This document shows, in pieces, positions 11,196 through 19,002 of a DNA stretch of 64,000 nt (positions within the stretch are counted from its first letter, which is position 1; every line of letters starts with the position of its first letter). The stretch spans positions 124,001 to 188,000 of the forward strand of contig CAIMLR010000002.1 of assembly GCA_903842345.1 (NCBI GenBank), given 5' to 3'. The position numbers and the translations under genes are program-made. The notes beneath the pieces were generated by a model, which worked only from the letters and a program-made list of their open reading frames with translations, did not search any database and was not told the DNA's origin. This stretch comes from an uncultured Myxococcales bacterium. GTDB taxonomy: Bacteria > Myxococcota_A > UBA9042.

Positions 11196-12476
11196 CTAGC
11201 TTTCCTCAATGCGCTCAATGCGCGCGCCCAGGGAAGCCAGCTTCACTTCGATCTTCTCGTAGCCGCGGTCAATCTGGCGGATGTTGTGAATCGTCGTTGT
11301 GCCATGCGCGCACAGCGCCGCCATGACCAGCGCCATACCCGCGCGCACGTCCGGGCTCTGCACGCGCTGACCCACCAGACGGCTCGGACCGGCCACGACC
11401 ACGCGATGCGGATCGCACAAGATGATCTGCGCGCCCATGCCGATCAGGTGATCGACAAAGAACATCCGGCCTTCGAACATCTTCTCAAAGAACAGCACGG
11501 TGCCGCTCGACTGCGTGGCCACCGTGATCGCGATCGACATCAAGTCGGTCGGAAACTGCGGCCAGATCGAGTCGTCCACGCGCGGAATGCCGCCCGCCAG
11601 ATCCTGGCGAATCCGCATGTCCTGCTCGCCGGGCACCAGCACGTCATTGCCGTCGATTTCCGTGCGCACGCCCAGGCGCTGGAACACCATGCGGATCATG
11701 CGCAAGTGCTCGGGCGCCGCGTCCTGGATGCGCAGGCTGCCGCCCGTCACCGCAGCCAGACCGATGAAGCTGCCAACTTCCAGGTAGTCCGGACCGATCG
11801 TGAAGTCCGCGCCGTGCAGCTTGTCCACGCCGTGGATGATGAGGCGATTGGTGCCAATGCCCTCGATCTTCGCGCCCATGGCCGTGAGCAGCCGCGCGAT
11901 GCCCTGCACGTGCGGTTCGCATGCGACGTTGGACAGGACCGTCGTGCCCTTGGCGACGGACGCCGCCATCAGCAGGTTCTCCGTCGCGGTCACGGACGCT
12001 TCATCCAGAAAGAAATCGGCGCCGATGAGACCCGTGGAATCGAGCTTGTACGTCTCGCCGACCGTCAGCTTGGCGCCGAGCGCGGCAAAGCCGTCAAAGT
12101 GCGTGTCCAGCCGGCGCCGGCCAATCACGTCGCCACCGGGCGGCGGCAATGCGCAATGACCCGCGCGACCGAGCAGCGCGCCGGCAAACAGGATCGACGC
12201 ACGCACGCGGCGACCCAGGTCCGGCAGTTCCGTCGTGCGCAAATCGCGGGTCACGATGCGAATCGCGTGCGGCTCCAGCCACGTCACTTCGCTGCCGAGC
12301 TCGCGGAGGATGTCGATCATCACGCGGACGTCGAGGATGTCCGGGATGTTGCGCAAGATCACCGGCTCGTCGGTCAGAAGCGCCGTGGCCAATGCCGGCA
12401 ACGCCTCATTCTTGTTGCCAGAAACGCGCACGGTACCGGAGAGCGGCACGCCGCCTTGGATGCGAAAGAGGCTCAT
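11196..12476 (-). CDS. murA: UDP-N-acetylglucosamine 1-carboxyvinyltransferase, Asp-type active site
   Basis: 426 residues, transferring enolpyruvate from PEP to UDP-GlcNAc in the first committed step of peptidoglycan synthesis. SGNKNEALPA (Lys of the active site) is near the N-terminus. The loop that normally holds the catalytic and fosfomycin-alkylated Cys (Cys115 in E. coli) reads PPPGGDVIGRRRLDTHF, so Asp116 replaces Cys. Asp variants are active and fosfomycin-resistant in mycobacteria, and this loop style is also found in Bacteroidetes. The start ATG overlaps the recF stop (ATGA), and the stop abuts proB. Identity is certain; the resistance is inferred. Confidence 0.95.
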   Translation of the reverse strand: MSLFRIQGGVPLSGTVRVSGNKNEALPALATALLTDEPVILRNIPDILDVRVMIDILRELGSEVTWLEPHAIRIVTRDLRTTELPDLGRRVRASILFAGALLGRAGHCALPPPGGDVIGRRRLDTHFDGFAALGAKLTVGETYKLDSTGLIGADFFLDEASVTATENLLMAASVAKGTTVLSNVACEPHVQGIARLLTAMGAKIEGIGTNRLIIHGVDKLHGADFTIGPDYLEVGSFIGLAAVTGGSLRIQDAAPEHLRMIRMVFQRLGVRTEIDGNDVLVPGEQDMRIRQDLAGGIPRVDDSIWPQFPTDLMSIAITVATQSSGTVLFFEKMFEGRMFFVDHLIGMGAQIILCDPHRVVVAGPSRLVGQRVQSPDVRAGMALVMAALCAHGTTTIHNIRQIDRGYEKIEVKLASLGARIERIEES

Positions 12477-13609
12477 GTCACACCTGTGGAAGAATCGGGG
12501 GAAGTCGTCCGGTCAAAACGGCCGGTCTCAGACAAATGGCCAGCTTGCATCAGGAAGACCTGGCGCGGCGCGGCGACGCGGATGTGCGCGGCGTCCGTCG
12601 TTGTCAGGAACACCTGACCACCCAGCTCGTCCAGATAGCCCATCAGCGCGCGGTTGCGCGTCGCATCGAGCTCCGAGGAAACATCGTCCATCAGCAGCAC
12701 GGGCGGTTCGCCAAAGTCCGCTTCCAGACTGCGAATTTCCGCTATCTTCATGGCCAGAACCAGCGCGCGGCATTGGCCTTGGCTCGCATGCAGCGCGGCG
12801 GTCCGGTCGGCAATGCGCAGGTCAACGTCGTCGCGATGCGGCCCGCGCGTCGTGTGACCGCGCGCCAGATCCCGCGGGCGATTGGCAAGCAGGAGCCGCA
12901 AGAGCTGCGCCTCGTCCGCCACTTCGTCACGGGGCAGGTACAGGGCATCGGCCAGCAGTCCCGGCGCCGCGATGCGGGCAAAAGCATCCCGCAGGATCGG
13001 CGCAAAACGCTGCAGCACGCGCTGCCGACGCAGGATCAGCTTGATGCCGGAATGCGCCAGCACCTGATCGTACGCATCCAGCAGCCCGGTATCGACGTGC
13101 GTCGTCTTGTGCTGGCGGAGCAGCGCGTTGCGGTTGGCGAGCGCCTGTTCATAGCGGCGGAGGTCGGCCAGGTGCGCCGGCTCGTGATTGAACGCCAGGC
13201 GATCGAGCCAGCGCCGCCGTTCCGACGGCTCCGCGTGCGGCAATCCCAGATCCGTCGGGGCAAACAGCACGACGACCAAACGACCGAGGTAGTTCGCCAT
13301 CGACGTCGCGCTCTTGCCGTCCAGAAACAACTTCTTCTGGCCGTGGGCGATGCGCACGCCCAGGTCTTCCCGCAGCCCGCGGCGTTCAATTCGCAAGCCG
13401 AGCGTCGCTTCCTTCTCGTCAAAAGCCAGACAATCGCTCAACTTGCTCGTGCGAAAGCTGCGCAAGCTCGCCGCCACCGCAATCGCTTCCAGCAGGTTGG
13501 TCTTGCCTTGGCCGTTGTCGCCGCTTATCAGGTTGAAATGGCGATGCGGCCACCACTCGATGGTCTCGAGGTTGCGGAAGTGTTCAGCAAAAAGGCGCTC
13601 AATATGCAC
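12473..13609 (-). CDS. recF: DNA replication and repair protein RecF
   Basis: 378 residues, an SMC-like ATPase that helps load RecA at gaps. Walker A is GDNGQGKT at about residues 30-37, the ABC signature is SQGQCR, and Walker B is VLLMDDVSSELD near residue 320. The start is GTG 13609, 21 nt after the dnaN stop, preserving the classical dnaN-recF order. Its end overlaps murA by four bases. gyrB, which often follows recF, is replaced here by murA. Confidence 0.95.
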   Translation of the reverse strand: MHIERLFAEHFRNLETIEWWPHRHFNLISGDNGQGKTNLLEAIAVAASLRSFRTSKLSDCLAFDEKEATLGLRIERRGLREDLGVRIAHGQKKLFLDGKSATSMANYLGRLVVVLFAPTDLGLPHAEPSERRRWLDRLAFNHEPAHLADLRRYEQALANRNALLRQHKTTHVDTGLLDAYDQVLAHSGIKLILRRQRVLQRFAPILRDAFARIAAPGLLADALYLPRDEVADEAQLLRLLLANRPRDLARGHTTRGPHRDDVDLRIADRTAALHASQGQCRALVLAMKIAEIRSLEADFGEPPVLLMDDVSSELDATRNRALMGYLDELGGQVFLTTTDAAHIRVAAPRQVFLMQAGHLSETGRFDRTTSPDSSTGVT

Positions 13610-13630: not shown

Positions 13631-14773
13631 CTACATGCGCATCGGCATGATGACAAACACGCAGCCGGGCTCTTCGTCGGCATGCAGCAGGCACGGCGAG
13701 AACTGGTCAGACAACTCCAGCGTGATGTGCTCAGTGCCCAGCACGTTGCACACGTCCAGCAGGAAACGCGGATTGAAGCCGACCTTGATCTTGGCGCCCT
13801 GGTAGTCGGGCAGGTCGATTTCTTCGTGCGCTTCGCCGTCGTTGTGGCTCATCTCAAGCACCATGCGACCCGCTTCCAACTCCACGCGCAGCGGTGAATC
13901 GCCGCGCGCTGAAGCCAGCGAAGAGACGCGGCGCACCGCGCTCATGAATTCGCTCGTCCGCAGACTGACCGAGGCATCGCCGCGCTCCGGGATGACGCGG
14001 GTGTAGTCGGGAAAGCGCTCTTCAATCTGCCGCACTTGCACGCGGGCCTTGTCGCTGGAAATCACGACGTTGCGACCGACAAACTCAATGCGCGCCGACG
14101 GATCCGCGCCCTCAAAGATGCGCTGCAGTTCCGAGGCGCCGCGGTGATGCAGGATCCACTGGTGCTTCTGGCCGTCGTAGTCGCTCACGGTCATCGACCG
14201 CTCAGCCTTGGACAGCCGCGTGCCATCGGTCGACACCATGCGGATGCGCACCTGGTTGGCCGGCGCGCCGTTGCCTTCCGGCTCGATTTCCAGCAGCACG
14301 CCGTTCAGCGCCGGGCGGTTTTCTTCCTGCGACACGGAGAACAGCGTGCGTTTCAGCATCGTCTCCAGGTGGCTCTTGTCACACAGCAGGCCGCGGCCTT
14401 GGGTATCCTCAATCGCGTTGGGCGGAAATTCTTCCGGCGCCATGCCGTTCAGGTAGTAGTACGCCCGACCCGCTTCAATGCGCAGTCGATTGTTCGCCTC
14501 AGTCGACAATTGCACCGTCGCGCCATCTGGCAACGCCCGCACGATGTCAAAAAGCGACCGCCCGTTGACGACTGCGGCACCCGGCTCGATGACGTCCGCC
14601 GCGACTTCCGCCACGACCGTGACGTCGTATTCCGCCGCCGTGAACACCAAGCCGTCTTCGCTCGCCGCGATGTGCACGTGCGCGAGGACGTTGTTCATCG
14701 GCTTGCGGGAAATCACGCCCTGGGCGCGATAAAGCGGCACAGTCAAAGCAGCTTTGTCGATGCGAACTTTCAT
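13631..14773 (-). CDS. dnaN: DNA polymerase III sliding clamp (beta subunit)
   Basis: 380 residues, the ring-shaped processivity clamp. It has the typical three-domain length and the conserved C-terminal tail ending in MPMRM (family M-P-M-R/K pattern). Interior matches include SRKPMNNVLAHVHIAA and the DYTRVIPE loop. ATG 14773 has AGGAGAG about 8 nt upstream. It heads the operon with recF and is transcribed away from the origin candidate. dnaA, which normally precedes it, is absent; the upstream neighbour is the DnaA-box region and then hutU. Confidence 0.96.
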   Translation of the reverse strand: MKVRIDKAALTVPLYRAQGVISRKPMNNVLAHVHIAASEDGLVFTAAEYDVTVVAEVAADVIEPGAAVVNGRSLFDIVRALPDGATVQLSTEANNRLRIEAGRAYYYLNGMAPEEFPPNAIEDTQGRGLLCDKSHLETMLKRTLFSVSQEENRPALNGVLLEIEPEGNGAPANQVRIRMVSTDGTRLSKAERSMTVSDYDGQKHQWILHHRGASELQRIFEGADPSARIEFVGRNVVISSDKARVQVRQIEERFPDYTRVIPERGDASVSLRTSEFMSAVRRVSSLASARGDSPLRVELEAGRMVLEMSHNDGEAHEEIDLPDYQGAKIKVGFNPRFLLDVCNVLGTEHITLELSDQFSPCLLHADEEPGCVFVIMPMRM

Positions 14774-14929
14774 CTAGGCACTCTCCTGCCGAACACGACG
14801 TCTGATGCTCGGCTGACGCGGCGAAGTTGTACTCTGGATGGCCGCAATTGACCAGACCCGCACGCGGCGGGACGCAGGCTCCAGGCAAGTGCAGCACGGG
14901 GGTGGATTGAATCAGATGAGATCCAAAGA

Positions 14930-15230
14930 GGTGCTGTCGCTGGTCCTGTGGATGGCTGTGGGTAGGCGAAATAGCCGTGTGTTGCAGCCAAGTTGTCGAC
15001 GATCAACCTGTGGATGAATCCGTGGACGGGTGTGGACAGGTCGGCCGTTTGTCCACAGGCTTGGCGGGCTGTCCACAGGCCCGCGTGTTTGTCCACAAAG
15101 GCCCAACAGGTTATTCACAGCTTATTCACAGGAACAATCGATCGGAATTTCAACGTTTTGCAAATGATTGCAGGGTGTTGCATGATAGTGAGCGGACAAT
15201 TGCCAACAAAAACAACGCGGGTACCTTCTC
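14930..15230. other. candidate chromosomal replication origin (oriC)
   Basis: The 457-nt gap between dnaN and hutU holds no gene. Its right part combines a DnaA-box cluster (14947-15130) with a less GC-rich stretch at about 15131-15215 (AATTTCAACGTTTTG, AACAAAAACAACG), which could be the unwinding element. It adjoins dnaN-recF, the classical origin neighbourhood. Gene strand polarity switches here: all genes to the left are on the minus strand and most to the right on the plus strand. The remaining part (14774-14929) shows nothing beyond the dnaN leader. Confidence 0.75.
14947..15130. promoter_or_regulatory. DnaA-box cluster
   Basis: Boxes that I can place: TGTGGATGG at 14947, TGTGGATGA at 15009, TGTGGACAG at 15031 (forward orientation); TTGTCCACA at 15049, CTGTCCACA at 15069, TTGTCCACA at 15089, TTATTCACA at 15111 and TTATTCACA at 15122 (opposite orientation). 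The last two fit the TTATNCACA consensus exactly, and TTGTCCACA is the type preferred in high-GC genomes such as Streptomyces. Start-to-start spacings of the five in the second group are 20, 20, 22 and 11 bp, consistent with one or two helical turns. Confidence 0.8.
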
Positions 15231-16919
15231 TCACCTGGGCACCTGCACGCCTTCGCGCGCTGCGACGACAGCCGCTTCTTCATAGCCGGCGTCCAGATGG
15301 CGCAGCACGCCAAGCGTCGGGTCGTTGGTCAGCACGCGTTGGATGCGCTTGGCGGCTTCGGGCGTTCCGTCAGCGACGATGACCACGCCCGCGTGTTGGC
15401 TGTAGCCCATGCCCACGCCGCCGCCGTGGTGGACGCTGACCCAGGAAGCGCCGCTGACGGCGTTGACGAGCGCGTTGAGGAAGACCCAATCGGAGACCGC
15501 GTCGGAGCCGTCCTTCATGCTCTCCGTTTCGCGGTTGGGAGAAGCGACGCTGCCACAGTCCAGATGGTCGCGGCCAATGACAATCGGCGCCTTGACCTTG
15601 CCTTCCGCGACGAGTTGGTTGAACAGCAGGCCAGCCTTGGCGCGCTCACCCAAGCCCAGCCAGCAGATCCGCGCCGGGAGGCCCTGAAAGGCGATTTGCG
15701 GCGCGCCTTCTCTCAGCCACTGCTGCACGCCGGGATTGTCGGGAAAGGCCGCGAGGATGGCCCGGTCCGTCACCGCGATGTCCTCCGGATCGCCCGAGAG
15801 CGCGACCCATCGGAATGGTCCCTCCCCGCGACAGAACCGCGGGCGGATGTAGGCGGGCACAAAACCGGGAAAGGCGAAGGCCGTTGCGTGGTCCATTCCG
15901 CCCGCCACGGCCTCTGCCCGCAGGTTGTTGCCATAATCAAAAACGTGGACGCCTTGGCCCAGCCACGCGCCCAGGCGCGCGACGTGTTCGCAGATGTCCC
16001 GGCGGACGCGGGCAATCCACGCGTCCGGATCCGCCTCACGCGCGATCTGGGCTTGCGCCAGCGTCAGCCCCGTCACGTGGTAGCCGACGAGGGGATCATG
16101 GGCGCTTGTCTGGTCGGTCGCGAGATCGGGCAACACGCCGCGCTGCTCCAACGCCCGAAGCAGTTCCAGCGCGGTGGCTTGCACGCCGATGGAGGGCGCT
16201 TCGCCCGCCGCCTTGGCCGCCAAAGCCCGGTCAATCGCCGCGTTCACGTCGGTGAACTGCTCATGCAGGTAGCGCTGTTCCAGCCGCCGCTCCAGCCGCG
16301 TCGGGTCGACTTCCGCGGCGAGCATCACGCCGCCCGCGAGCGTGCACGCCAGCGGTTGCGCACCGCCCATGCCGCCCAAGCCGGCCGTCACGGTCAAGCG
16401 CCCGCGCAACGGCCGATGCGGATCAAAGCCAGGCAGGTGGCCAAAATGCTGGCGGCCCGCTTCAGCAAAAGTCTCGTACGTTCCCTGCACGATCCCTTGG
16501 CTGCCAATGTAGATCCACGATCCCGCCGTCATCTGGCCGTACATCATCAGGCCTTTTTGCTCCAGTTCGCGGAAGACCTGCCACGTCGCCCATTTGGGCA
16601 CCAGGTTGCTGTTGGCGATCAGCACGCGCGGCGCATCCGCGTGGGTCTTGACGATGCCGACTGGCTTGCCCGACTGCACAAGCAAGGTCTCGTCGTCTTC
16701 CAGCGTCGTCAGCGCGCGGCAGATCGCGTGGAAGGCCGGCCAGTTGCGCGCCGCCTTGCCGATGCCGCCGTACACAACCAGGTCCTGCCATCGCTCGGCG
16801 ACGTCCGGGTCGAGGTTGTTGCACAGCATCCGCAGCGCGGCCTCCTGCATCCAACCGCGACAGGAAAGCGTTGTGCCGCGGGCGGCGTGGATCGGTTGTT
16901 CCGGCGGATGGTTGTTCAT
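15231..16919 (-). CDS. hutU: urocanate hydratase (urocanase)
   Basis: 562 residues, the usual length. It converts urocanate to imidazolonepropionate in histidine breakdown, using tightly bound NAD+. Family landmarks include [22 protein letters not shown] and [18 protein letters not shown] in the C-terminal half, which contains the conserved Cys, followed by YSQHAG. The start is ATG 16919 with AGGAG 7-8 nt upstream; the ten extra residues from 16946 are not needed. No hutH, hutI or hutG is adjacent, so the gene is isolated between the origin candidate and a divergent metallophosphoesterase gene. Confidence 0.95.
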
Positions 16920-17027
16920 GGCGGGCTCCTGCGTTGGCCGCAGCAAGTGTGGCAGACCGTACGAATCGGAACAAACGTTGGTGCGTTAGCGTTAAGATGG
17001 CTCGGTTGGCAGCCGGAGCAGGTGATC

Positions 17028-17922: not shown

Positions 17923-19002
17923 CTAGCCTTCCGCTACGCTTGACACTGTCATCGCCGAGAGCGTCACCGACGCGTTCGGCGCGAAAGCGGCTTCGCGGAC
18001 GCGCTGGTCGATCTTCTTGAACAGTTCCTTCTCATCTTTGAGCAGCTGGCGCACTTTCTCGCGGCCCTGACCGAGGCGCTCGCCATCAAAGCTGTACCAT
18101 GCGCCGACCTTGTCCATGATGCCGGCTTCGGACGCCACGTCGATCAAGTCGCCGCATGCGCACACGCCTTCGCCGTACAGGATGTCGAATTCGTGCTGGC
18201 GGAACGGCGGCGCGACCTTGTTCTTGACCACTTTGACGCGCGTGCGATTGCCGATGTTGTCCTCGCCGCTCTTCAACGCGCCGATGCGGCGGATGTCGAG
18301 GCGGATGGAGGCGTAGAACTTCAGCGCGTTGCCGCCCGTCGTCGTTTCGGGGCTGCCAAACATCACGCCGATCTTCATGCGCAGCTGGTTGATGAACAGC
18401 ACGATGCAGTTGGACTTGGCAATGGACGACGTCAGCTTGCGCAGCGCCTGGCTCATCAACCGCGCGTGGCCGCCGACCTGGCTGTCGCCCATCGCGCCTT
18501 CCAGTTCCGCCTTGGGCACCAGCGCCGCCACCGAGTCGATGACGATCACGTCGACCGCGCCCGACCGCACCAGCGTGTCGCAGATTTCCAGCGCCTGTTC
18601 ACCGGTATCCGGCTGGCTGACCAGCAGGTCGTCGGCTTTCACGCCCAGCTTGCGGGCATAGCCCACGTCCAGCGCGTGTTCCGCGTCGATGAACGCCGCA
18701 ATGCCACCGGCCTTCTGCGCTTCCGCGATCAGGTGCAGGGCGATTGTCGTCTTGCCCGACGATTCCGGTCCGAAGATTTCCACAACCCGGCCGCGCGGAA
18801 AGCCGCCCACGCCGAGCGCGATGTCCAGGCCGATGGAGCCCGACGAAATCACGCTGATGTCGCGCGCCGTCGCCGCTTCGTCGCCCAAGCGCACCATGGC
18901 GCCTTTGCCAAAGGCGCGTTCGATGGTCGAGAGCGCCGTCGCAATGGCTGCGCGCTTGTCCGTTTCCATCGGTTCGTTCAGGTCTTTCTTGGGCTTGGCC
19001 AT
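17923..19002 (-). CDS. recA: recombinase RecA
   Basis: 359 residues, the ATP-dependent strand-exchange protein and SOS co-protease. Walker A is GPESSGKT, followed by FIDAEHALD, the Walker B region [18 protein letters not shown], and [20 protein letters not shown] (L2 loop). Start ATG 19002 is preceded by GGAGAGGA. It is monocistronic as far as can be seen; recX is not downstream. Its upstream region contains three 11-bp tandem repeats and a LexA-like element, so DNA-damage control is likely. It converges with the phosphoesterase gene across a strong hairpin. Confidence 0.97.

Follow-up and report, generated by a model that had tools for sequence, protein, structure and literature searches.

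The hutU-dnaN gap and its DnaA boxes

The gene for the beta clamp of DNA polymerase III, dnaN (13631-14773, minus strand, 380 aa), lies next to recF (12473-13609, minus strand) in the stretch of DNA analysed here, a 64,000-nucleotide window that corresponds to positions 124001-188000 of contig C2 in genome G000 (5.85 Mb in 50 contigs, 95.7% complete). Both genes were confirmed by Pfam, and their adjacency, which the sequence-only reading of this DNA had called classical, is kept in relatives. Upstream of dnaN is a gap of 457 bp (14774-15230), and beyond it lie hutU, encoding urocanase (15231-16946, minus strand), and recA (17923-19002, minus strand). Comparisons within the genus were made with G000 and four congeners, G001-G004, all of them draft genomes. 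The hutU gene flanks the gap in G000, G001, G003 and G004, and not in G002. The nearest named records, with DnaN 99-100% identical, are "uncultured Myxococcales" MAGs, whose isolate names suggest a lake habitat for the host. One further record, L029 (CAMDBH010000117.1), is titled as a Klebsiella pneumoniae MAG and encodes a DnaN 67% identical to that of G000; it matches G005, from the same family as G000, and its Klebsiella title is evidently wrong.

When sites were scored against TTATCCACA, the gap was found to contain the eight DnaA-box-like sites described earlier, or nine counting a weak one at 14957. The candidate oriC array, defined by box matching, shuffles and genus alignment, occupies 14947-15130 on both strands. 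Five boxes are on the plus strand, at 15049 (TTGTCCACA), 15069 (CTGTCCACA), 15089 (TTGTCCACA), 15111 (TTATTCACA) and 15122 (TTATTCACA), and their starts are separated by steps of 20, 20, 22 and 11 bp, exactly the spacings first reported. The boxes at 15031, 15009 and 14947 and the weaker 14957 are on the minus strand. The outer end of the array is formed by a strong plus-strand pair, TTATTCACA-GC-TTATTCACA (15111-15130), of which the box at 15122-15130 is outermost. The array adjoins dnaN-recF, the position expected of oriC.

The clustering of these boxes is beyond chance. Allowing one mismatch at most, the 457-bp gap contains 5 boxes, compared to a mean of 0.08 and a maximum of 2 in 5000 dinucleotide shuffles; with up to two mismatches it contains 9, compared to a mean of 1.0 and a maximum of 5 in 1000 such shuffles. 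No other 250-bp stretch in 400 kb of contig C2 has more than one box at one mismatch or less, and the phased pattern TGTCCACA-N10..16-TGTCCACA occurs genome-wide only in the hutU-dnaN gap. By this pattern search the cluster is unique in the genome, as an origin should be. Strict box pairs were found at only two other places in G000, both on contig C7. The first, a perfect TTATCCACA pair (C7:14197-14218), has a trmFO-like gene on one side and a hypothetical gene on the other; the second, also a perfect TTATCCACA pair (C7:465356-465384), is inside a mobile island whose genes include serine-recombinase-like ones and one for a TraG/VirD4-like ATPase. Both pairs are isolated and lack an array, and they were rejected as rival origins.

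Alignment of the gap among the five genomes of the genus revealed that 65% of the columns within boxes are invariant, compared to 24% of those in the spacers, and none of 183 register shifts scored as high as the true box register. In each of these genomes the outer box (15122-15130) reads TTATNCACA, either TTATTCACA or TTATCCACA. The alignment thus indicates genus-wide constraint on the boxes. Closer to dnaN is a strongly conserved block, GGTCTGGTCAATTGCGGCCATCCAGAGTACAACTTCGC (14821-14858, minus strand), a probable promoter region for dnaN.

The least stable 60-mer of a 1.8-kb region (15111-15170) both covers and abuts the strong boxes, so that easily melted, AT-rich DNA adjoins the array of G000 in the manner expected of oriC. 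This segment is likely a DNA-unwinding element. The least stable 60-mer adjoins the outer strong boxes in G002, G003 and G004 as well, and in G001 it is found at the opposite end of the array. The mark of a basal unwinding system is a run of at least three NAN trios no more than 16 bp from a DnaA box, and no strict run of this kind follows the outermost box (trio definition of PMC8287927). One weak trio run, CAG GAA CAA, can be counted from the inner box, and it overlaps the outer box.

GC skew and strand polarity

A GC-skew minimum at this site had been proposed as a check on the origin, and at the scale of the contig the minimum is indeed close by. On contig C2 it falls at 142909 (window 18909), within the 5' end of recA and 3.8 kb from the array, and is the deepest of 400 kb; averaged over 139 kb on either side, the skew is -0.017 on the left and +0.019 on the right. 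The corresponding minimum in G004 is at 139142 and the array at about 142863, 3.7 kb apart. In these two genomes, then, the contig-scale minimum coincides with the array to within 4 kb. The minimum is 15 kb from the array in G001 and 25 kb in G002, offsets that are expected after the recent flank rearrangements in these genomes (see below). They are also a reminder of how weak the skew is, at about 0.02. The signal is noisy as well, and a secondary local minimum is found near dnaA, at about 215 kb of contig C2.

The sequence-only reading also placed a flip in gene strand polarity at the array. The eleven genes to the left are indeed all on the minus strand. On the right, however, hutU and recA are minus-strand genes too, which puts the actual flip near 18.9 kb, about 4 kb beyond the array. 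Genes show only a weak strand bias, and CDS skew on contig C2 reaches its minimum elsewhere, at 382 kb.

The relocated dnaA gene

The same reading inferred a loss of dnaA, which proved mistaken: the gene has been relocated, and lies about 80 kb from the array on the same contig (C2 218580-220178). It is complete (532 aa); the AAA+ and helix-turn-helix domains of its product are intact, and the GGRDHSTAIHA signature is present. One conserved block, in which a response-regulator-like gene adjoins the 3' end of dnaA, surrounds the gene in every genome of the genus, and none of the five has a box cluster at dnaA. An equally dense cluster beside dnaA had been named as a result that would count against an origin next to dnaN; an origin at dnaA is rejected because no such cluster is there. 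The G000 locus lacks the dnaA adjacency of the canonical dnaA-oriC-dnaN arrangement and corresponds to the dnaN-linked, cyanobacterial type of origin, with boxes beside dnaN and dnaA elsewhere without boxes. A second DnaA-like match, at C7:458374, was discarded, since sequence and neighbouring gene identify it as the IstB protein of an IS21-type element, beside IstA. This element (C7:458230-460471) is a possible source of error in counts of DnaA, since the Pfam model PF00308 for DnaA also matches its IstB.

Could the displacement of dnaA be an artefact of assembly or binning? The genomes are drafts and the nearest named records are all MAGs. Nonetheless, dnaA and dnaN are 80-82 kb apart in both G000 and G004, and the same collinear segment of about 80 kb joins them on single long contigs of these two separately assembled genomes (C2 and C37, respectively). 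The two genes are on separate contigs in G001, G002 and G003, but the flanks of dnaA are common to all five genomes. An artefact is accordingly extremely improbable.

Another way to account for the displacement is that replication uses a different initiator or several origins, as in some cyanobacteria with dispensable dnaA, and that the array is a relic. The separation of dnaA, the weakness of the skew and the lack of a convincing DnaA-trio run could be taken in this sense. Against it stand the constraint on the boxes in the five genomes, the intact, conserved DnaA and the turn of the skew near the array. We judge this explanation very unlikely.

Ancestral gene order and rearrangement beside the array

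Elsewhere in the family, dnaA is found directly upstream of dnaN (G006, G007, G008, G009, G011, G012 and G035). Boxes are present between the two genes in all six of the same-family genomes that were read (G007, G008, G009, G011, G012 and G035), with the fewest in G012, and an intact dnaA-dnaN junction in another family (G019) also has boxes. Comparison of these sequences indicates that dnaA-[array]-dnaN-recF is the ancestral order in the family and that the breakpoint in the genus of G000 is between the 3' end of dnaA and the array. Since the sister genera have dnaA-[boxes]-dnaN-recF, a rearrangement in the genus apparently split dnaA from an origin that was kept with dnaN.

These results also bear on the idea that the array is a DnaA-responsive control region for transcription of dnaN (and recF), with the origin in some other place such as dnaA. 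In favour of this idea, DnaA acts as a transcription factor, the array is upstream of dnaN, a promoter-like conserved block adjoins that gene, and there is a secondary skew minimum near dnaA. Yet dnaA is devoid of a box cluster throughout the genus, and in G000 and G004 the skew is lowest at the array, which moreover has kept the ancestral place between dnaA and dnaN and is adjoined by the least stable DNA. A purely regulatory array is thus improbable, though regulatory and origin roles may coexist.

On the side of the array away from dnaN, at least three rearrangements have taken place in the genus, with breaks between dnaA and the array, between hutU and recA, and between the array and hutU, and this flank is a possible breakpoint hot spot. 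The origin flank was rearranged again in G001 and in G002; in G001, hutU is followed by the segment that in G000 sits on the other side of dnaN. Origin-tied rearrangements are the usual form of structural change in bacterial genomes (PMC9584773), a pattern that fits but does not prove the rearrangement mechanism proposed here.

A second genus of the family, g7, has dnaA and dnaN on different contigs. One of its members, G013, has a seven-box array with 22-bp steps upstream of dnaN and, in place of dnaA, a gene that by eye resembles a sensor kinase; other g7 genomes are less clear. In a DnaN tree the G000 genus and g7 form separate clades among genomes with adjacent dnaA and dnaN, with low support at the deeper nodes; g7 shows the same dnaA-origin split, apparently independently. 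Across the class, dnaA and dnaN are on different contigs in all of family f5, in g7, and in G014, G015, G020, G030 and G032, and their separation looks frequent. In the four f5 genomes that were read, no box cluster was found at either dnaA or dnaN. A search of open-licence papers found no description of dnaA-dnaN separation in Myxococcota.

ParB and parS

ParB and parS are usual neighbours of the origin. No chromosomal ParB above the curated cut-off of TIGR00180 was found in the whole genomes of G000, G001, G002 and G004, and parS matches in G000 at up to two mismatches were no more numerous than those of a reversed control, giving no signal. G000 itself gave only a ParB-like fragment of 135 aa on C42, close to an integrase-like gene, and a weak match on C47. 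Within the family, g7 and g8 do have ParB, as does most of the class, and the pattern suggests that ParABS was lost in the G000 genus and some of its neighbours. In M. xanthus, parAB is essential and maps some 35 kb away from oriC, with 22 parS sites close by (PMC3899335).

A broader proposal, which we hold only tentatively and consider rather doubtful, is that within the family the array repeatedly stayed with dnaN after dnaA moved, at least twice and perhaps independently, and that the split in the G000 genus went together with the absence of a recognisable chromosomal ParB. If this were true, selection would act to keep the origin beside dnaN, the clamp gene, and not beside dnaA.

A model for initiation with DnaA in trans

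With a probability of roughly 90%, the 457-bp hutU-dnaN gap is a functional chromosomal oriC that uses DnaA in trans; DnaA binding, the direction of unwinding and initiation are what we infer from the arrangement of the DNA. The original suggestion of a candidate oriC is supported by the skew minimum, the uniqueness of the array, its footprint in the genus alignment, the sister genera, and the lack of boxes at dnaA. Counting against it are the weak and noisy skew with its offset minima in G001 and G002, the weak gene-strand bias and distant CDS-skew minimum, the lack of a strict trio run after the outermost box, and the failure to find chromosomal ParB or parS. Steps of 20-22 bp are about two helical turns. 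DnaA made from the gene some 80 kb away would bind the helically phased boxes and form a filament growing toward the outer TTATTCACA pair. It would open the AT-rich DNA alongside (about 15111-15170), where the helicase could then be loaded. At the base of the genus, the chromosome would have been broken between the dnaA stop codon and the array, such that dnaA left and the origin stayed with dnaN.

The family thereby offers a natural experiment with a polarity: near genera with dnaA beside the origin can be set against a genus in which dnaA has moved and the origin is otherwise kept, which permits testing whether dnaA-oriC linkage matters for the control of initiation. On the practical side, numbering or origin-calling from the position of dnaA would be wrong by at least 80 kb in the G000 group.

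Comparison with known origins

In the canonical dnaA-oriC-dnaN arrangement, the array is between dnaA and dnaN-recF, much like the boxes of G008, G035 and G007. The G000 genus differs in that dnaA has moved and hutU (another gene in G002) is in its place. The E. coli oriC is away from dnaN, whereas the G000 origin stays with that gene. The two are alike in that the origin is apart from dnaA (PMC8287927 for the separation) and would depend on DnaA in trans. The tandem strong boxes of G000, 2 bp apart and beside unstable DNA, resemble the basal unwinding system of Bacillus subtilis, made up of tandem boxes and DnaA-trios (definition in PMC8287927), but in G000 the outer box is not followed by a clear run of at least three trios.

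The closest parallel is with cyanobacteria (Synechococcus elongatus PCC 7942, Cyanothece ATCC 51142), in which, as in G000, a box cluster is beside dnaN at a skew shift and dnaA is elsewhere, with DnaA acting in trans as proposed for G000 (PMC7198777, PMC4674748). In S. elongatus PCC 7942, oriC is near dnaN at the skew shift point and is bound by DnaA, dnaA is essential, and dnaA and dnaN are apart (PMC7198777); predicted cyanobacterial origins mostly have dnaN on one side (PMC4674748). The cyanobacteria are a different phylum with a different box, TTTTCCACA, present three times in Cyanothece, compared to the TTRTCCACA/TTATTCACA of G000 at 8-9 sites. Of the two systems, only the cyanobacterial one has been proven by experiment. 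The novelty of the G000 origin is modest, because dnaN-side origins without dnaA are already known from cyanobacteria; its useful part is the clear before-and-after within one family.
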